Part shown: one piece after another, positions 39,549 through 50,870 of the stretch
Layout: every line of letters starts with the position of its first letter
Position numbering within the stretch: the stretch's first letter is position 1
The notes under the pieces: generated by a model
What the model saw: the letters and a program-made list of their open reading frames with translations, nothing else
Database searches by the model: none
Told to the model about the DNA's origin: nothing
Assembly (NCBI GenBank): GCA_029975475.1
Contig: JARKPB010000003.1
Location: 62,001-126,000 of the forward strand
Reading direction: 5' to 3'
Origin: Anaerolineaceae bacterium
GTDB lineage: Bacteria; Chloroflexota; Anaerolineae; Anaerolineales; Anaerolineaceae
Length of the DNA stretch: 64,000 nucleotides
Made by a program: the position numbers and the translations under genes

Positions 39549-40454
39549 TTAGACTTTGACTGAAACCGGCGGTTTAAGCAGGACCATTTTGCCCAGGATC
39601 CCCGGAAGCATCGCCAGCTTCTTCAACCCACTGGTATGGGCGCGGTGGTGGAAGACATCATATTCCAGGGCGACAATTTCATTTAATATCTCCCGGTACA
39701 GTAAAGCTGCCGCGCCAACCGCCACGCGCGCGCCACGGCTGAGCAAAGCGATGCCCGGGAGGGCAATTTCATACAGCCGGTAAGCGCGCTGCATCTCAAA
39801 GCGCAATAACGCCTTGAAAGATTCATCCAGACGGTGATTGAGGATATCCTGCAGACTGAGGCCAAAACGCTCCAGATCTTCCAGCGGCAAATAAACCCGC
39901 CCGTTGCGCGCATCCTCACCCACATCTCGCAGGATGTTGGTCAGCTGCAGGGCGATACCCAGGGTAACGGCAAACGGCGCCGCCTGTTCAAAAGCAACCC
40001 CATCTGCCAGACCAATAATGGGGATGGAGAGAAGACCAACCGTGGAAGCCACCAGGTAACAATAGCGCTCCAGTTCCTGCCAGGTGGCGTAGGGCTGGAA
40101 ATTGATATCAGCCAGAATGCCGTCCAGCAGTTCCTGTTCATATCGGCGGTCAACATTAAACCGCTCCCGGCAGGCAACCCAGGCGTACAACACAGCATCG
40201 TTCTGCCGGTCGAGCGGCTGATTAACCTGTTGCCGCCAGGCTTCCAGATCGCCAGCACTGGCGCCCTGCCGGTCCACCAGGTCGTCACTGGCGCGGCAAA
40301 AACCGTAGAGCGCGCGGATGGCGCGGCGCTGATGCAAATTGAGCAGTTGAGTGGCGAAGAAAAAGGTTTTCGAACTTTCTCGAATGATGGTTTCAACCTT
40401 TTTCTGAGCAATTTCACCGGTCATCGCGATCATGGTTGCTGCCTGGGCGGTCAT
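39549..40454 (-). CDS. crtB: Phytoene/squalene synthase family protein (CrtB-like)
   Basis: It joins two prenyl diphosphates head to head, giving phytoene from geranylgeranyl diphosphate. Both aspartate-rich magnesium sites are present: RASDDLVD (near residue 55) and LRDVGEDARNGRVYLP. The FCRASDD and YCYLVASTVG blocks are typical of phytoene synthases. 301 residues is standard. It follows crtI by about 70 bases on the same strand. Squalene or diapophytoene synthase activity is possible, but the adjacent CrtI-like desaturase favours carotenoid synthesis. Confidence 0.92.
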   Translation of the reverse strand: MTAQAATMIAMTGEIAQKKVETIIRESSKTFFFATQLLNLHQRRAIRALYGFCRASDDLVDRQGASAGDLEAWRQQVNQPLDRQNDAVLYAWVACRERFNVDRRYEQELLDGILADINFQPYATWQELERYCYLVASTVGLLSIPIIGLADGVAFEQAAPFAVTLGIALQLTNILRDVGEDARNGRVYLPLEDLERFGLSLQDILNHRLDESFKALLRFEMQRAYRLYEIALPGIALLSRGARVAVGAAALLYREILNEIVALEYDVFHHRAHTSGLKKLAMLPGILGKMVLLKPPVSVKV

Positions 40455-40523
40455 GGTCTCTTACTCCTTACCAGTAAATGCACCGATATGATAGATAACC
40501 CGCTCAATCCCGCCTGGTTCCGC

Positions 40524-42005
40524 TCAGGCGGCCTGAGCGATTAACCGATCGGTAATGATTGAGGATGACAATACCCCCGGCAAACCAGCTCCGGGATGGG
40601 TGCCGGCGCCGACAAAATATAAATTCTCGAATTCTTCCGAACGGTTATGAGGCCTGAACCAGGCGCTCTGGCGCAGAATGGGCTGCACGGAAAAAGCCGC
40701 GCCTTTGTAACTGTTGAGCGTGTTCTGAAAATGCAGCGGATCAATGTAATGCTCCGCCACGATATTGGCCCGCAGGTCCGGCAGGTAATTCTCTTCCAAA
40801 AATAGCAAGATTTTATCCCGATAGGGGCGCGCCATCTTGGTCCAGTCCACTTTGGCGTCCAGGTGCGGTACCGGGGAGAGGACGTAAAAAGTTTCGCAGC
40901 CCGCCGGCGCCATGGATGGATCGGTAAGAGTGGGCATGTGCAAGTAGAGGGAAAAATCCTCTGCCAGCACTTTTTTATTGAAAATGTCATCGAGCAAGGG
41001 CTTGTAGCGCGGCGACAGGATGATGTTGTGATGCGCCAGTTTGCTGTCTTTGTATTCTTTTCGCGTGCCAAAATAGAGCACAAACAGCGACATGGAATAC
41101 TTGTACTGATCGATGCGCCAGTTGGTAAATTGTCGGCGGTGGCGTTCATTGATCAGATACCGGTATGTCCAGGCCACATCGGCGTTTGAGACGACAAAAT
41201 CCGCGGGTAAGACGCTGCCGTCCGCCAGCCGTACCCCGGTTACCCGGCGGTTCTGGATGACAATTTCAGAGACTTCGGTGGAAAGGCGAATTTTTCCGCC
41301 CAGCTCTGCGAAAACTTTCACCAGCGCATCCACAATCGCGCCGGTACCGCCCACAGCGTAATGGACGCCCCATTCGCGCTCCAGGTAATGAATCATCGCG
41401 TAGATGCTGGTGGTATCGAATGGGTTGCCGCCCACCAGCAGGGGGTGAAATGAAAAGATCTGACGCAGAAAATCATCCTGAACAAACTGGGACACATACT
41501 GGTACACGCTCTTGTAGGATTGCAGCCGGATTAAGTCCGGGGCGATCTTGAGCATGTCGGTGAAGTGCAGAAAAGGTTGATCAGCCAGTTCCACAAATCC
41601 CTTTTGAAAGATCGCCCGGGTGGTGGCGATAAAGCGTTCGTAATTGGCCTTGTCAGCCGGGTTAATGCGGCCAATCTCGTTTAATATGAAGTCGTGATCA
41701 TTGTTGTAATCAAATTTGCGGCCGGTGTGGTCAAATATGCGGTAAAAAGGATTGACCGGCACAAACTGGATATAATCCTCGCGTTTTCTTCCCGCAGCGG
41801 CAAAGATATCATCGAACATGAATGGAGCGGTGATCACCGTGGGACCGCCGTCAAATTTGAAACCGTTGATCTCGTAGAGATACCCGCGCCCTCCCGCTTT
41901 ATCGCGCTTTTCGATGATCTCGACGTCAAATCCGCGCGCTGCCAGGCGCACGGCCGCCCCCAGACCGCCAAACCCGCTGCCGATGATGATGACTTTTTTT
42001 GCCAT
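40524..42005 (-). CDS. crtI: Phytoene desaturase (CrtI-like)
   Basis: The start at 42005 ([14 protein letters not shown]) has AAGGA upstream, and a longer frame would extend into the promoter. The FAD-binding [16 protein letters not shown] is at residues 5-20, followed by a GG doublet region, and [14 protein letters not shown] at the C-terminus is the CrtI signature. 493 residues matches the family. It introduces double bonds into phytoene at the membrane surface. The promoter region contains a CarH-like operator, so light induction through B12 is likely. Related carotene isomerases or ketolases share the fold; the C-terminal motif and crtB neighbour favour desaturase. Confidence 0.93.
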
Positions 42006-42075
42006 ACCCAATCCTTTACTGCCTGGTAATATTGTGAATGATTTAATTCTGACCAATATCTAACTATATCTAACT

Positions 42076-42103
42076 ATTGTATGCTTGTAACGATTTTGTA
42101 CAA
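42076..42103 (-). promoter_or_regulatory. crtI promoter with CarH-like operator (11-base repeats)
   Basis: On the minus strand TTGTAC (42103-42098) and TACAAT (42081-42076) are spaced by 16 bases. Three TACA tetramers are found here (plus-strand TGTA at 42097-42100, 42086-42089 and 42078-42081), the first two exactly 11 bases apart. CarH tetramers bind near-repeats with this period and cover the -35 region in the dark. Confidence 0.6.
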
Positions 42104-42115
42104 TCCCTTCCGCGG

Positions 42116-42565
42116 TTATTCTTTTAGAGGCGCCAACCGACCGATCACCAAACGGCGGTAAATAAACATCCAGCGCAGGGTGAATGGGTTAAAGAGCAGC
42201 CGGGTCAGCCAACCTCTCGGGCCGGCGTGATGGCGGTATTCGATTCGGTCGGTCAGCCTGGTGCCACCTCCAGACGGCTCGTAGCGGTGGTGATGAACCC
42301 ATTCCGCCAGCGGACCGCTGATCTGGCGGTCGGTGAACCCGGTTTCAAGGTCCACCTGCTCGTGGCGTGCCTGCCAGCGCAGGGGAATCGGGCCAAACCA
42401 CATGGTGAAATCAGCCAACGATCCATCCGCCAGAGGCTCGAACCGGTGAACCTGCACAAAAACCGGCGGCGGGGTCAACCGTCGCAGGGCATCGCTGGAC
42501 TGGTGAAATCTCGCCACTGCCGGATGCGGGCTGTTGACCAGATAAGTAACCTCAAAGCGCGCCAT
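42116..42565 (-). CDS. SRPBCC-superfamily protein, 149 aa
   Basis: This small START/Bet v 1-like protein begins FEVTYLVNSPHPAVARFH and has the typical DLETGFTDRQISGPLAEWVHHHRYEP and GTRLTDRIEYR strands. It ends in a long helix with LLFNPFTLRWMFIYRRL. The fold forms a hydrophobic pocket. In many bacteria such proteins accompany carotenoid genes, where they may carry or shape lipids, though no enzymatic role is proven. A good ribosome site (GGGAG) precedes the ATG. It lies nine bases after the MFS gene and upstream of the crtI promoter, so it belongs to the regulator-transporter operon. Confidence 0.8.
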   Translation of the reverse strand: MARFEVTYLVNSPHPAVARFHQSSDALRRLTPPPVFVQVHRFEPLADGSLADFTMWFGPIPLRWQARHEQVDLETGFTDRQISGPLAEWVHHHRYEPSGGGTRLTDRIEYRHHAGPRGWLTRLLFNPFTLRWMFIYRRLVIGRLAPLKE

Positions 42566-42574
42566 CTCCCGTCC

Positions 42575-43777
42575 TCAAACAACCTGTCGGGCAGCCGCCG
42601 GCAGACCTTCCGCCTGGACATTCCGGCGAATGTACCAGGCAAGGTAAATCAGCAGCAGCGCGCTGAAAATTCCAGGCCCAGAAGTGGTCACCGTATCCAG
42701 CAGCAGACCGCCGATCGAAGGCGCAATCACGCGGGTCAGACTCTCGACCGAAGAAGAAAGCCCCAGGGTGCCGCCGATTTCTACCGGCGTTACCGACTTG
42801 GTCAGGGCAGCGTTCAGGATCGTGTTCAGAGTCCCGCCGGCCACCGCGATCGGAATCAGGTCAAACAATAAAAACCACACCGAAGGGGAGAATGCCCACA
42901 TCAGCAAGCCCAGAGCCATCACTACCGTTGACCAGAGAATGATCTGGCGGTCGCTGAAACGGCGGGTTAACCGGCCCACGATTAAACCCTGAGTAAGCGC
43001 GGAAAGGAAACCGACATAGGCAAGGATATATCCGGTCTGGGTGGAATCGAGCAGGAAACGCTGCAGCGCGTAAAGCGTGAAAACACCCTGAAACATTGAA
43101 AAAGCCAGGCCGAAGAAAAAGCGCGTGTGAAGCAATGGGCCGACTTTTGGGCGCCGCAGAGCCTGCATCAAAGCCGTGAAATTAAAAGCCGGACGGGGCA
43201 AACTGGCCAGCTGCTGCCGCCGCTCGGCGGTCATGGATTCCGGCAGCCAGAAAAGGACCAGAATCAGGTTCGCCATTCCCAGCCCGGCGGCCAGCAAAGC
43301 GGGCACATAAAAGCCGAACTGGCTCAGTATCCCACCGGCGGCCGGGCCGATGATAAAGCCGAGGCCAAAGGCTGCGCCGATCATCCCCAGCCCCTTGGCG
43401 CGGTTATTTTCATCGGTTACATCGGTAATGTACGCCTGAGCTACACTGATATTCCCGCCGGTAAATCCAGCCAGCAAACGGGCCAAAAAGAGCATCCATA
43501 AACTGTTGGCAGCGGCCAGGATCAAGAAACCGATGATATTCCCGGCGATCGAGATGATCAGCACCGGGCGCCGCCCGTATTGATCCGAAAGCCTGCCCAG
43601 CAGGGGAGCGCTGATCATCTGCGCGGCCGCATACACAGCCACCAGCAGCCCCACAGCCAGCGAAGAAGCGCCAAAAGTTTCGGCATAATACGGCAGCAAC
43701 GGCAGTATCAGGCTGAAACCCAGCAGGTCAATAAATACAACTAAAAAAATGGATAGTAATCGTTTTTGTTGGTTCAT
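42575..43777 (-). CDS. MFS transporter, DHA1/TetA-like, 400 aa
   Basis: Twelve membrane helices are predicted. The antiporter motif A is GRLSDQYGRRPVL after helix 2, and helix 5 carries GFIIGPAAGG (motif C of drug/H+ antiporters). The start shares four bases with the stop of the upstream regulator gene. The cargo is unknown. It could export a drug-like compound or a pigment precursor. Its coupling to a CarH-type regulator suggests light- or B12-controlled expression, and transport of a carotenoid-related or photo-oxidised compound is possible but speculative. Confidence 0.88.
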   Translation of the reverse strand: MNQQKRLLSIFLVVFIDLLGFSLILPLLPYYAETFGASSLAVGLLVAVYAAAQMISAPLLGRLSDQYGRRPVLIISIAGNIIGFLILAAANSLWMLFLARLLAGFTGGNISVAQAYITDVTDENNRAKGLGMIGAAFGLGFIIGPAAGGILSQFGFYVPALLAAGLGMANLILVLFWLPESMTAERRQQLASLPRPAFNFTALMQALRRPKVGPLLHTRFFFGLAFSMFQGVFTLYALQRFLLDSTQTGYILAYVGFLSALTQGLIVGRLTRRFSDRQIILWSTVVMALGLLMWAFSPSVWFLLFDLIPIAVAGGTLNTILNAALTKSVTPVEIGGTLGLSSSVESLTRVIAPSIGGLLLDTVTTSGPGIFSALLLIYLAWYIRRNVQAEGLPAAARQVV

Positions 43778-44739
43778 TTTTCGCTCAAAGGATATTCAAG
43801 GATGCGTTTTTCGATCATCTCTACTGCTTTAGAAGGCGAACTGGCGATCCGTTCGACCGGCAATGCCCGCAATGGCTGATCCCCTTCAAAGCCCTGACCG
43901 CCAACAACCACGATCGGACGGGGCGGTTCAAAATTTTCCAGCGCTTCAACCAGCTGTTCTTCCAGCGCGCGGGCTGACTCCGGCCGGGTAGCAGTGAACA
44001 TCAGCAATTTCGGGCGAATCGGCTTTAACGCTTCTTCCAGGCGATCCAGCTTCAGGTCAGGTCCCAGGTACTTCACATCCCAGCCGCGCCAGCGCAGCAT
44101 GACCACCAGCATTAATATCCCGATCTGGTGCATTTCTCCGGGGGCGCAGGCGGCCACGATCGTTCCCGGGCGAGAAGGCGGCGCAGAGTTCGCCAGCATG
44201 CTCATCAGATGCTGCATGCAGAACTGAGTGGCGAAATGTTCGACCGCAATGGGCAGCCTGCCCTGGTGCCACAAATCGCCGACTTCCACCAGGCTGGGCT
44301 GAAGCAGATCCTGCAGAACTTCATCCACCGGGTAAAGCGAAAATGCTCGCCGCAGCGCTTCCGCGGCGGTCTGATCGTTCATCGTCAGCAGCGCCTCTTT
44401 AAATTGCCCCGCCAGGTTTTCAAGGGAGACAGGTTTATCCAGCGCGGGGGCGACCATCACATTGGCGGGGTCAATTCCGTTGGATTTTAACTCCGCCAGA
44501 TATTCAACCGCCCGGCTGATGCTCATGCCGGCGTCCAGCTGCGACTTCAACCAGCGCAGGGTGCGCAGGTCGTACTCAGAGTAAAGGCGGTAACCCTGAT
44601 CGCCGCGGCGGGGGGTTGGCAGTCCGTAACGCCGCTCCCAGGCGCGCAGGGTAACCGGCAGTAAGCCAACCAGCCGCGATACAGCCTTGATGTTATAAAC
44701 AGGCAGGTGATGATTCTTCACCGCATTTTGGTCTTCCAT
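43774..44739 (-). CDS. CarH/LitR-type MerR regulator with B12-binding domain, 321 aa
   Basis: The MerR winged helix (residues 14-85) has VTLRAWERRYGLPTPRR and GYRLYSEYDLRTLRWL. A linker leads to the cobalamin-binding half (about 105-315). The adenosylcobalamin-capping motif W-x9-EH is complete: Trp157, Glu167, His168. The lower axial ligand is His204 in GEMHQIG. In CarH proteins, adenosylcobalamin makes a dark tetramer on DNA, and light breaks the Co-C bond, releasing the operator. It sits in the carotenoid island next to a paralogue and upstream of the MFS gene. All key residues are present, so light sensing is likely. Confidence 0.92.
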   Translation of the reverse strand: MEDQNAVKNHHLPVYNIKAVSRLVGLLPVTLRAWERRYGLPTPRRGDQGYRLYSEYDLRTLRWLKSQLDAGMSISRAVEYLAELKSNGIDPANVMVAPALDKPVSLENLAGQFKEALLTMNDQTAAEALRRAFSLYPVDEVLQDLLQPSLVEVGDLWHQGRLPIAVEHFATQFCMQHLMSMLANSAPPSRPGTIVAACAPGEMHQIGILMLVVMLRWRGWDVKYLGPDLKLDRLEEALKPIRPKLLMFTATRPESARALEEQLVEALENFEPPRPIVVVGGQGFEGDQPLRALPVERIASSPSKAVEMIEKRILEYPLSEK

Positions 44740-44813
44740 TTTTCACCACTCGTATAAACCACAAAATTGATCTTTCTTAAGATTAATCCCAGTCCGCATA
44801 TCGCGCCATTATT

Positions 44814-44828
44814 TGTACAATCTTTGTC
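44814..44828 (-). promoter_or_regulatory. CarH-like repeat pair upstream of the first regulator gene
   Basis: Plus-strand TGTA (44814-44817) and TGTC (44825-44828), TACA and GACA on the minus strand, are exactly 11 bases apart, about 75-90 bases upstream of the start at 44739. TTGTACA contains one of the two. The same spacing recurs upstream of crtI and of the second regulator. Confidence 0.5.
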
Positions 44829-44882
44829 TAATTAAGAATTCCCGGCGCAAGACCGGGAATTCGCACATGAATAGACCGCGGA

Positions 44883-45833
44883 TCAACGCCCCTTGACCAG
44901 CTCGCGAACCCGGCTGGCTGCTCCATCCAGGGTATCCCCCAGATATTCCCCGGGGACCTCGCGGCGCAGGGCTGGCTTGCGCACAAAGGCGCCGCCGCCG
45001 TAGGCGAAGATGATCGGGGTCTTGATCCGGGAAATTTTTTCCTGGGCTTTTTTCAACAAACCGGCTGAAGATTCGAGCGAAGCCGATAAAAGGATCATGG
45101 AAGGTTTTTCATAGCGGGCGTAATCCACCAGGTCGTCCAGGGGGATATCCGGCCCGAGGTATTCCACGCGGTAACCCTGCGCGCGCAGCAAGACTGCCAT
45201 CATCAGGCTGCCGATCTCGTGCTGCTCGGTTTCCGCGCAGCCCACCATGATGTAAGCGGAATTTCGCCGGGTGGGGTACGCCTGGAACATGGCCAGCAGC
45301 TTACCCCGCAAATATGCGCTGGCGAAATGTTCGGTCGCGATGCGAATTTTGCCGTGGTACCAGTCCTCACCGATCTGCACCAGCGCGGGTGTGAAAATGC
45401 GGGTGAAGATGGTGGTCACATCAAAGGAGGTCTGAATTTCGCGCACCAGGTCGCCAGCCGCAGTTTCATCGTGTCGAATCAAGGCTTCATAGAGCATCTG
45501 AGCGTATTCCTGGGGGGGAATATCGGTCTGCCGCGGGATCAGCGTCGGAGCAGCCGGGACCGCATCCGGCCAGATATTATTGCGCAGCATGCCGCGCATC
45601 TCCGCCACGGCACTGCTGATCGAAACACCGCTGTCAATACGGCTCTTTAACCAGCGCAGGATGGCGACATCGCGCTCAGAATACAGGCGGTACTTGTTGT
45701 CTGAGCGGTGCGGGGTTAAAACCTCATGACGCCGCTCCCAGGCTCGCAGCGTTACCGGGCGAATGCCGGTCTGGGAACTGACAGCCTTGATGGTGAATTT
45801 TGGTAAGTCGGGTAAATCGCCGATGTTGCTCAT
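44883..45833 (-). CDS. Second CarH/LitR-type MerR regulator with B12-binding domain, 316 aa
   Basis: A paralogue of the gene downstream, with MerR head VTLRAWERRHEVLTPHR and KYRLYSERDVAILRWL. W-x9-EH is complete (Trp158, Glu168, His169), and the lower axial ligand His205 is in EQHEIGS. Sequence between the two proteins differs clearly, notably in the recognition region (RYGLPTPRRGDQG in the first, RHEVLTPHRSDNK here), so they may bind related but distinct operators. Two regulators may divide responses, for example light versus B12 supply, or form mixed complexes. The ribosome site is AGGAAAGG. Confidence 0.92.
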   Translation of the reverse strand: MSNIGDLPDLPKFTIKAVSSQTGIRPVTLRAWERRHEVLTPHRSDNKYRLYSERDVAILRWLKSRIDSGVSISSAVAEMRGMLRNNIWPDAVPAAPTLIPRQTDIPPQEYAQMLYEALIRHDETAAGDLVREIQTSFDVTTIFTRIFTPALVQIGEDWYHGKIRIATEHFASAYLRGKLLAMFQAYPTRRNSAYIMVGCAETEQHEIGSLMMAVLLRAQGYRVEYLGPDIPLDDLVDYARYEKPSMILLSASLESSAGLLKKAQEKISRIKTPIIFAYGGGAFVRKPALRREVPGEYLGDTLDGAASRVRELVKGR

Positions 45834-45878
45834 GGTTCCGCCTTTCCTGAAGGTTGTTCAAAGTTGATACAAAAACAT

Positions 45879-45893
45879 TATACATGCTTTGTA
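45879..45893 (-). promoter_or_regulatory. CarH-like repeat pair and -10 box upstream of the second regulator
   Basis: Plus-strand TATA (45879-45882) and TGTA (45890-45893) are 11 bases apart, matching the spacing at the two other sites of the island. The minus strand reads TATAAT at 45882-45877, a perfect -10 box inside the repeat, about 45 bases before the start codon. The -35 is weak. Confidence 0.55.
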
Positions 45894-45944
45894 CGAAGTT
45901 TACATTAGAATAAGATGAGAATTTGGAGAATTTTGGTAATAAAT

Positions 45945-49981: not shown

Positions 49982-50521
49982 TCAATGGATAAAAAACCGC
50001 GCCAGCCCGTCCGCCAGCCGCCGCGCCGCGCGCCGCACGATCGGGGACATGGCCTGGCCAAAAGCGATTGCGTACGGCTGCACTCCCAGCAGGCCCACCC
50101 CGCATCCAAATTCGCCCGTCAGATATCGGGCCAGCAGGGTCGGAGGCAGGGTATGGGTCGATGCGCTTAGCCCGTCCGCTGCGCGCCAGTCCGCCCAGAG
50201 GATCTCACCCGGCTCGCGCCCGGCGTCCACCGCGTCAATCAGCAGCACCCAGTCCGGCAAAAATGGCCGCAGCGCGCCGGTCGTATTTTCCGGGGCGGTG
50301 CCGCCCACCAGACATAAAAAATGCGGCCGGTTTGCCAGCCGCCGCGCCAGCGCGCGCACGACCGCCGCCCCGACCGCGTCATCACCGTTCAATTCATTGC
50401 CGATTCCGATAAAGGCCACCCGCAGAGCTTCAGGCGCCTTCTCCTTCTCCGCCGCAAGGTTCGCCCGTGCCTGGCTGAGCGGCTCGATCCAGGAGGAATT
50501 GGATGTCTTCATCTCTGCCAT
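49982..50521 (-). CDS. [NiFe] hydrogenase maturation protease (HycI/HyaD family)
   Basis: The family markers are GIGNELNGDDAVG at about residues 38-50 and the nickel-binding DAVDAGREPGE in the middle. These enzymes cleave a C-terminal peptide from the large subunit after nickel insertion. The start at 50521 is chosen between several ATG/TTG codons (50533, 50512) and is uncertain. All overlap the ferredoxin subunit gene by about 80-100 bases, so the N-terminus may be shorter than drawn. Its place at the end of the hydrogenase operon, and a large subunit with an uncleaved extension, fit exactly. Confidence 0.88.
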   Translation of the reverse strand: MAEMKTSNSSWIEPLSQARANLAAEKEKAPEALRVAFIGIGNELNGDDAVGAAVVRALARRLANRPHFLCLVGGTAPENTTGALRPFLPDWVLLIDAVDAGREPGEILWADWRAADGLSASTHTLPPTLLARYLTGEFGCGVGLLGVQPYAIAFGQAMSPIVRRAARRLADGLARFFIH

Positions 50522-50870
50522 AATAGACTTCAAATGGCTCTTTTTTCAAAGAAGCCAGCTCCCATTGTTCACCGGTCATATTCAAGCACTCAAATCGGCA
50601 GCTTTCAATGCACTGACCGCAAAATGTGCAGCGGTCGGTGTGATAGCGCATCACAAAGCGCTTGTTGGCTTTATCCACCACCAGCAGCTCAATCGCGTCC
50701 GCCGGGCAATCCTTGATGCACAGCTGGCAGCCGGAGCATTTTTCCGGGTTATAGACCAGCTTGCCGCGCAGATTCTGGCTTGGTTCGTAACGCTCGAAAG
50801 GATATTTTTCGGTCGCCGGTTTCTTGAAAAACGATTTTAGAATGTCACCCAACATAGAGCCAATGGACAT
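50430..50870 (-). CDS. Hydrogenase ferredoxin-like subunit (NuoI/MbhN/HyfH-like), 146 aa
   Basis: Two CxxCxxCxxxC clusters, CSGCQLCIKDCP and CTFCGQCIESCR, each hold a [4Fe-4S] centre. They pass electrons between soluble ferredoxin and the small subunit. The N-terminus has the amphipathic MLGDILKSFFKKP helix, and the C-terminal tail is glycine- and glutamate-rich. It starts nine bases after the NuoH-like gene. Length is shorter than NuoI (about 180) and like MbhN/EchF. Confidence 0.92.
   Translation of the reverse strand: MSIGSMLGDILKSFFKKPATEKYPFERYEPSQNLRGKLVYNPEKCSGCQLCIKDCPADAIELLVVDKANKRFVMRYHTDRCTFCGQCIESCRFECLNMTGEQWELASLKKEPFEVYYGRDEDIQFLLDRAAQPGTGEPCGGEGEGA

Follow-up and report, generated by a model that had tools for sequence, protein, structure and literature searches.

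According to the accessible part of PMC9304148, the operators of CarH, a light-responsive repressor, are tandem 11-bp repeats (5'-nnnnTnnACAn-3') lying over the -35 or -10 promoter element, and the class I LitR proteins to which CarH belongs are marked by a W-x9-EH motif and by an axial-histidine motif (D/ExHx2G/P) with a downstream GG. The accessible part of PMC11796333 names W131, E141, H142 and H177 as the residues of CarH that are key for adenosylcobalamin (AdoCbl) and gives the light signature as GxxW, EH, GxxH and GxxxP. Here we describe two such regulators, reg1 and reg2, in a 64,000-nucleotide stretch (hereafter the window) of an Anaerolineaceae bacterium (assembly GCA_029975475.1, contig JARKPB010000003.1, positions 62,001 to 126,000 of the forward strand), where six genes at 39549-45833 follow one another on the minus strand in the order reg2, reg1, MFS, SRPBCC, crtI and crtB. 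The protein family, the key residues, the conserved gene order, the conserved 11-bp repeats and their recurrence before the genes listed below are established by sequence. From these we judge it likely that the CarH pair, with its TnnACA operators at 11-bp spacing, serves as a general light switch and also controls a retinal photoreceptor.

44883-45833, minus strand: reg2 (regulator 2), CarH/LitR-type MerR protein with cobalamin-binding domains, 316 amino acids (aa)
43774-44739, minus strand: reg1 (regulator 1), CarH/LitR-type MerR protein, 321 aa
42575-43777, minus strand: MFS transporter, Tet(A)-family-like (PF07690, 197.7 bits)
42116-42565, minus strand: small protein of SRPBCC/START fold (weak Polyketide_cyc2 match, E 0.0012, below the cut-off)
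40524-42005, minus strand: crtI, phytoene desaturase family (TIGR02734, 605 bits, cut-off 238.1)
39549-40454, minus strand: crtB-like phytoene/squalene synthase (PF00494, 237.2 bits)

The original prediction, made from the letters alone, had seen tandem CarH/LitR-type MerR genes followed by MFS, SRPBCC, crtI and crtB on the minus strand, and had credited both regulators with a complete W-x9-EH and axial histidine; coordinates and Pfam matches bear out the first statement, and an alignment of the key residues the second. Both proteins match MerR_1 (PF13411), B12-binding_2 (PF02607) and B12-binding (PF02310) above the Pfam cut-offs. Both also match structure entries of T. thermophilus CarH/LitR (5c8d with E 4.3e-33 for reg1; 3whp with E 2.8e-29 and 5c8d with E 9.1e-29 for reg2), and the alignments span both the MerR domain and the B12-binding domains. 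A structural model of reg1 (built from a 15-row alignment; predicted local distance difference test, pLDDT, 84.4) retrieved full-length CarH as its first Foldseek match (E 1.3e-19), with about 31% identity to the Thermus protein. W-x9-EH, the axial-histidine motif (E-x-H-x-x-G; EQHEIG in reg2) and the downstream GG are found in both regulators, which also keep the counterparts of W131, E141, H142 and H177 and have GxxW and EH of the light signature; the SxT/V element is TAT in reg1 and SAS in reg2. These features are best explained by taking the two regulators as paralogous photoreceptor-repressors of CarH type (class I LitR), presumably dependent on AdoCbl.

A search for reg1 in 61 genomes gave a match in 33, and 12 of the 61, the window's included, carry the reg2-reg1 tandem; the pair is kept in at least 11 other genera of Anaerolineaceae, Levilinea and Ornatilinea among them. 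In a second genome collection reg2 lies directly upstream of reg1 at all 11 loci found (L082 is cut by a contig end), two of which belong to Levilinea saccharolytica KIBI-1 and to Ornatilinea apprima P3M-1. Nine of the 12 tandem genomes have crtI after the pair; of the remaining three, L038 and L048 reach the end of their contig at that point. The MFS and SRPBCC genes come and go among the tandem genomes, and some Anaerolineaceae keep a lone reg2. A 45-row tree resolves each regulator as a single group needing one change (support 100/100), so the pair is old rather than the product of a recent duplication.

Three of the 12 tandem genomes show the loss of a ligand residue in one regulator only, the other retaining W, E, H and the axial histidine:

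L046, reg2: W to R and axial H to Q
L043, reg2: EH to EY
L044, reg1: axial H to E

Such losses are what would be expected if one regulator were a B12-independent partner like Myxococcus CarA and only the other sensed light. For the window we regard this as very unlikely, since both of its proteins keep all four residues, the Trp of W-x9-EH included. A lone reg2 at L063 has likewise lost cobalamin-contact residues. One further relative departs more widely: at L065:6881-7768 (G050:C6:239880-240764) a DNA-binding domain like that of reg1 (62% identical over residues 5-94) is joined, in place of the B12 domains, to one that resembles the AhpC/TSA-family protein found in G170 and G165. MFS and SRPBCC genes follow this fusion, which is present in one of the 298 genomes of the class, and the same operon may there be under redox rather than light control.

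The operators predicted at the locus, and a possible promoter, are as follows:

44809-44830, minus strand: predicted reg1 operator, TAGACAAAGAT/TGTACAAATAA, a perfect pair of TnnACA repeats at 11-bp spacing
42081-42102, minus strand: predicted crtI operator, TGTACAAAATC/GTTACAAGCAT, 7/8 key positions
42063-42091, minus strand: possible crtI promoter, GTTACA-17-TATAGT, with the second repeat as -35, 9/12 consensus positions
45868-45900, plus strand: probable reg2 operator, TACAAAAACAT/TATACATGCTT/TGTACGAAGTT, over the TATAAT-like -10 of reg2

The original prediction had placed TACA-like tetramers exactly 11 bases apart before crtI, reg1 and reg2, and this spacing is real at all three places. 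At reg1 the repeats TAGACA (44830-44825) and TGTACA (44819-44814) both fit TnnACA. At crtI two TACA units (42100-42097 and 42089-42086) are 11 apart, and a third, at 42081-42078, lies only 8 from the second. At reg2 the sense units TACA (45893-45890) and TATA (45882-45879) each have three of the four TnnACA positions; the TATA lies inside the TATAAT-like -10, and better repeats are found on the opposite strand, where a triple has 10/12 key positions against 8/12 for the best sense triple. Measured by a criterion of three or more repeats, the window holds two clear repeats at reg1, a 7/8 pair at crtI and a 10/12 antisense triple at reg2. A scan of the region for promoters gave two promoter-like sites against 2.5 expected, which does not exceed chance and leaves the crtI promoter weak when taken alone.

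To place these sites in context, pairs at 11 bp were scored in the 300-bp upstream regions of the tandem genomes (eight key bases per pair, 200 shuffles). Pairs with at least 7/8 positions stand before reg1 in 11 of 12 genomes (shuffles: mean 1.20, maximum 5), before reg2 in 6 of 12 (mean 1.46, maximum 4) and before crtI in 5 of 9 (mean 0.91, maximum 4). Such pairs also occur in 9 of 73 control upstream regions in a first set and, on the sense strand, in 22 of 269 in a larger one, so in one genome taken alone neither the crtI nor the reg2 site would be remarkable; across the tandem genomes both are. With adjusted starts, perfect pairs precede reg1 in 6 of 12 genomes (other spacings: mean 0.13, maximum 1), and of those before reg2 in the 12 genomes three are sense and three antisense, the antisense reading being the one that probably fits the window. 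In three relatives (L037, L042 and L048) the second reg1 repeat, read by eye, forms the -35 with a 17-base spacer to the -10, and in some relatives crtI lies close behind reg1 and may share its promoter. The proposal that both regulators control themselves and crtI is the best reading and is supported in part, by a CarH match, repeats that fit the published operator and their conservation at orthologues; it is less secure at reg2, where the operator is weak and looks antisense, and at crtI, where the pair is found in only 5 of 9 genomes.

Confining this control to the carotenoid island, as the original prediction did, proved too narrow, for the same operator recurs before other genes, heliorhodopsin among them. 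A loose pattern, TNNACANNNNNTNNACA, gave 33 matches in the window's own genome against 22 for its reverse and was dropped as unspecific in favour of stricter ones. The strict pattern TRTACANANNTTRTACA, suggested by the operator sites above and controlled by its reverse, was run over 147 genomes of the family and gave 62 sites in 38 genomes, compared with 8 for the reversed pattern. By a hand count at least 40 of the 62 adjoin genes whose family turns up beside sites in at least two genomes; the remaining sites have mixed neighbours without recurrence, and some are surely chance, because the reversed-pattern control gives 8. The recurring neighbours are:

DegV: 8 sites in 7 genomes of one genus
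Heliorhodopsin: 6 sites in 5 genomes of two genera
Fasciclin lipoproteins: 4 genomes
Tryptophan-rich membrane protein: 4
Unnamed 471-aa protein: 3
Divergent PALP (cysteine-synthase-like)/membrane protein pair: 3
FolE, SRPBCC, AhpC/TSA-family, PNPOx-like, alpha/beta hydrolase and the regulators themselves: 2 each

One member each of the DegV, PNPOx, fasciclin, FolE, AhpC/TSA, PALP and hydrolase groups was placed above the Pfam cut-off. The DegV-family genes behind perfect operators are at L204, L209, L212, L215, L217, L219 and L225, one copy being confirmed by Pfam. At L177, L178 and L180, all in one genus, a protein of 471-481 aa stands behind the perfect operator TATACAAAGATTATACA, and the copy that was scanned has no Pfam family. 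An operator-like site (position 177474) also lies beside a divergent gene for a CobA/CobO/BtuR corrinoid adenosyltransferase (L196:1696-2211, G132:C20).

Heliorhodopsin (PF18761) occurs in 42 of the 147 family genomes, and 41 upstream regions from 40 genomes were scored, leaving out fragments in G007 and G077 as well as minor second fragments where a genome had been scored already. Nine of the 41 carry a perfect 11-bp pair, whereas other spacings give a mean of 0.43 and a maximum of 3; the nine genomes (G018, G020, G033, G082, G129, G151, G154, G160 and G163) fall into six genera. The gene of G163 has a perfect repeat triple upstream, and in G020, which holds both the regulator pair and heliorhodopsin, the second repeat, TTTACA, is followed 17 bases on by GATAAT (read by eye). 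The element TRTACAA is present in 24 of the 41 upstream regions versus 7 of 269 controls. At the level of at least 7/8 positions the 11-bp spacing is not special for heliorhodopsin (16 of 41; other spacings: mean 10.26, maximum 18). In G018 the heliorhodopsin behind the perfect operator (L122:3256-3922, G018:C25) is split over two frames, either by sequencing error or because the gene has decayed.

In the wider class heliorhodopsin is found in 33 of 298 genomes, and an operator link outside the family was rejected: among 24 usable upstream regions, a set that leaves out five partial matches (G231, G281, G343, G431 and G457), one has a perfect pair and four have TRTACAA. Since perfect pairs stand at 9 of 41 upstream regions inside the family and at 1 of 24 outside it, the link between operator and heliorhodopsin is a trait of Anaerolineaceae. 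The search of the 147 genomes found no heliorhodopsin in those of Levilinea saccharolytica KIBI-1 (G021) and Ornatilinea apprima P3M-1 (G012). The retinal-forming enzyme Blh (PF15461) was found in none of 11 genomes, a result without weight, as the control genomes gave no match either.

The window's own genome also encodes a heliorhodopsin, outside the window at C3:150440-151237 (PF18761, 334.7 bits, cut-off 26.7; NF038020, 369.4 bits, cut-off 100). Its upstream region has one TATACAA and an antisense chain with 10/12 key positions. When the upstream regions of this genome were compared pairwise by local alignment, with 500 shuffles each, this one resembled that of reg2 (4 shuffles scoring as well); the corresponding counts were 28 for reg1 with crtI and 30 for crtI with heliorhodopsin. 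The genome's own fasciclin gene (C3:144620-145558) is preceded by two TATACA elements 33 bases apart, that is, three turns of 11 (by eye). A methyltransferase-like gene (L226:6836-7813) lies two genes after the heliorhodopsin, and a gene that looks related by eye is divergent from an operator-bearing SRPBCC gene at L216 (G168). With one mismatch allowed, the strict pattern has five sites in this genome against one for the control:

reg1
C13:137974: gene beside a UbiA prenyltransferase
C18:1155424: fatty-acid hydroxylase, with a PduO-type adenosyltransferase two genes on
C17:83934: SodA
C18:235075: tryptophan-rich membrane protein

A PduO-type cobalamin adenosyltransferase is thus present in the genome, and SodA beside a repeat pair is seen again in G025 (L131). 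For the membrane protein (NALPLNG..TGEISD) the name TspO was rejected, as there was no such match in Pfam for the genome's own copy or in NCBIfam for the own and Levilinea copies; in Levilinea saccharolytica KIBI-1 its operator site is at G021:C31:8249. The cases in this one genome (heliorhodopsin, SodA, fasciclin) are weaker than the family statistics.

On the model of CarH, reg1 and reg2 would bind DNA, depend on AdoCbl, respond to light and act as repressors. In the dark, with AdoCbl, oligomers of the two would assemble on the TnnACA repeats that overlap the -35 or -10 and would repress reg2, reg1-MFS-SRPBCC, crtIB and the scattered targets. Light would cleave the Co-C bond, the oligomer would fall apart, and release of the repeats would allow expression of carotenoid, retinal-protein and oxygen-stress genes. 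The regulon predicted for the family, many of whose members are of photo-oxidative-stress type, would take in heliorhodopsin, fasciclin, FolE, DegV, SodA and the tryptophan-rich membrane protein. We lean slightly towards the further view that the tandem B12 photoreceptors are a master light switch, in which a cobalamin sensor decides whether the retinal one is made, in lineages with anaerobic cultured members. A bolder suggestion is that reg1 and reg2, each without a different element of the light signature, might act as a mixed oligomer.

Several results weigh against a light switch run by this pair. The link to the regulators is loose in places: TRTACAA stands before heliorhodopsin in 5 of 12 cases without a reg2 orthologue and 19 of 29 with one, and perfect pairs in 3 of 12 and 6 of 29 (orthologues were assigned by hand, and the weaker matches in G005 and G162 were counted as none). 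Of the eight site-bearing genomes without a CarH homologue, three (G003, G099 and G154) are more than 90% complete. Within the window's own genome reg2, crtI and heliorhodopsin have degenerate operators, and pairwise alignment of upstream regions shows no likeness between reg1 and reg2 (233 of 500 shuffles as good), reg1 and heliorhodopsin (281) or reg2 and crtI (419). Some targets (DegV, the cysteine-synthase-like PALP and alpha/beta hydrolase) are not obvious light genes. The regulators themselves score far under the cut-off of 400 for the NCBIfam CarH equivalog NF052513 (162.4 and 137.2 bits), which is nonetheless the best NCBIfam match for both; the shortfall counts against identity with the named CarH and less against the kind, because an equivalog cut-off marks close relatives. 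Each also departs from the light signature. reg1 has GEMH, but its GPDLK is without the Pro of GxxxP, and this Pro is absent in 9 of the 10 readable reg1 rows from the 12 tandem genomes; reg2 has TEQH without the Gly of GxxH, but GPDIP with the Pro, and the Gly is absent in 11 of its 12 rows. Finally, light exposure is uncertain for Levilinea and Ornatilinea, which are anaerobes.

The first of these points could mean that, away from the crt island, the 11-bp repeats, those before heliorhodopsin included, serve other regulators of LitR/CarH-like or MerR type with a similar DNA-binding domain, so that the regulon would be real without being run by reg1 and reg2. Candidates exist: CarH-like proteins of greater length, with open frames of about 420-480 aa, occur in the family and order, the fusion at L065 carries a reg1-like DNA-binding domain with another sensor, and a MerR-family gene and an alpha/beta hydrolase are counted among ten frequent operon neighbours of heliorhodopsin in the accessible part of PMC11109279. 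We nevertheless think it unlikely, for the same consensus stands before reg1 itself, and operator sites are seen in 30 of the 90 genomes that have a CarH homologue against 8 of the 57 that have none (p 0.012, uncorrected for kinship), five of those eight genomes being less than 90% complete.

The missing signature elements, the sites before SodA (in the window's genome and G025) and before an AhpC/TSA-family gene, and the anaerobic life of the cultured relatives would also suit regulators that bind cobalamin yet report AdoCbl supply, oxygen or redox instead of light. We hold this to be quite unlikely. All four of the key AdoCbl residues given in PMC11796333, as far as that source is accessible, have counterparts in both proteins, the targets include carotenoid genes, FolE and the retinal protein heliorhodopsin, and some relatives live in phototrophic mats, such as Bellilinea in Mushroom Spring (PMC5459899, accessible part). 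A light switch worked by reg1 and reg2 remains the reading we prefer.

Turning to the remaining features of the locus, the end of reg1 overlaps the start of the MFS gene by 4 bases, and 9 bases separate the latter from SRPBCC; given this tight packing, reg1-MFS-SRPBCC looks like one transcription unit, in which the MFS gene is probably co-transcribed with reg1. The transporter falls below family cut-offs (NF012174, 239.9 bits, cut-off 475). The AlphaFold model of the SRPBCC protein (pLDDT 92.3) matched START/SRPBCC folds, the best Foldseek match being TTHA0849 of Thermus (2d4r, E 3.3e-08). crtI has its own upstream region and is given an ATG start at 42005, with the open frame reaching upstream to a TTG at 42056; crtB, the sole PF00494 match found in the window's genome, lies 69 bases downstream, and we infer a crtI-crtB operon. 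A terminator-like hairpin (45974-45945) lies ahead of the reg2 upstream region. A cobalamin riboswitch was sought in the window with Rfam at the gathering threshold, and the only match was one tRNA. Farther off, the minus strand encodes at 49982-50533 a hydrogenase-maturation protease of the HycI family (37.4 bits, cut-off 23), which is in keeping with anaerobic life.

The function of heliorhodopsin is largely open, and a shared CarH operator offers a direct and cheap test. If the predicted control is true, heliorhodopsin would join the carotenoid, fasciclin, FolE and SodA genes in a photo-oxidative-stress programme. The loss of cobalamin-contact residues from a single member of the pair should in turn be useful for understanding the origin of CarA-like forms. 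The regulator pair and its operator are of a known kind, and what is new, as far as the open-licence literature goes, is the family-wide operator link to heliorhodopsin: that literature yielded no report of heliorhodopsin together with CarH, and among its 99 heliorhodopsin papers the titles and abstract openings of the 40 listed name no such control. Some kind of regulatory connection does have a precedent, because a MerR-family operon neighbour is reported in the accessible part of PMC11109279; there, neither CarH nor an operator is named, whereas here a CarH-type operator is shared by unlinked genes. For Actinobacteria, the control of genes co-transcribed with heliorhodopsin is said to remain unclear (PMC8612252, accessible part).

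The closest described system is CarH of Thermus thermophilus and Bacillus megaterium, with which the window shares the MerR, four-helix and Rossmann cobalamin domains, W-x9-EH and the axial histidine, 11-bp TnnACA direct repeats over promoter elements and carotenoid genes, whose control is here predicted. It differs in having two tandem paralogues, each without a different lesser element of the signature, and in an operator that in Anaerolineaceae also stands before heliorhodopsin and other genes. With CarA-CarH of Myxococcus xanthus it has in common two CarH-family paralogues encoded with carotenoid genes, and some Anaerolineaceae pairs, in which one member is without cobalamin-contact residues, come closer to CarA; both window regulators, however, keep these residues, and the carotenoid genes of the cluster are crtI and crtB only. 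The class II LitR regulons of Pseudomonas likewise include FolE, which is light-induced there (PMC9758184, accessible part) and has an operator site here. Those LitR proteins reportedly do not have the ability to bind B12, one of them working with a LOV protein, whereas the cobalamin domains are intact in reg1 and reg2, and in Anaerolineaceae the sites also stand before heliorhodopsin and fasciclin genes.

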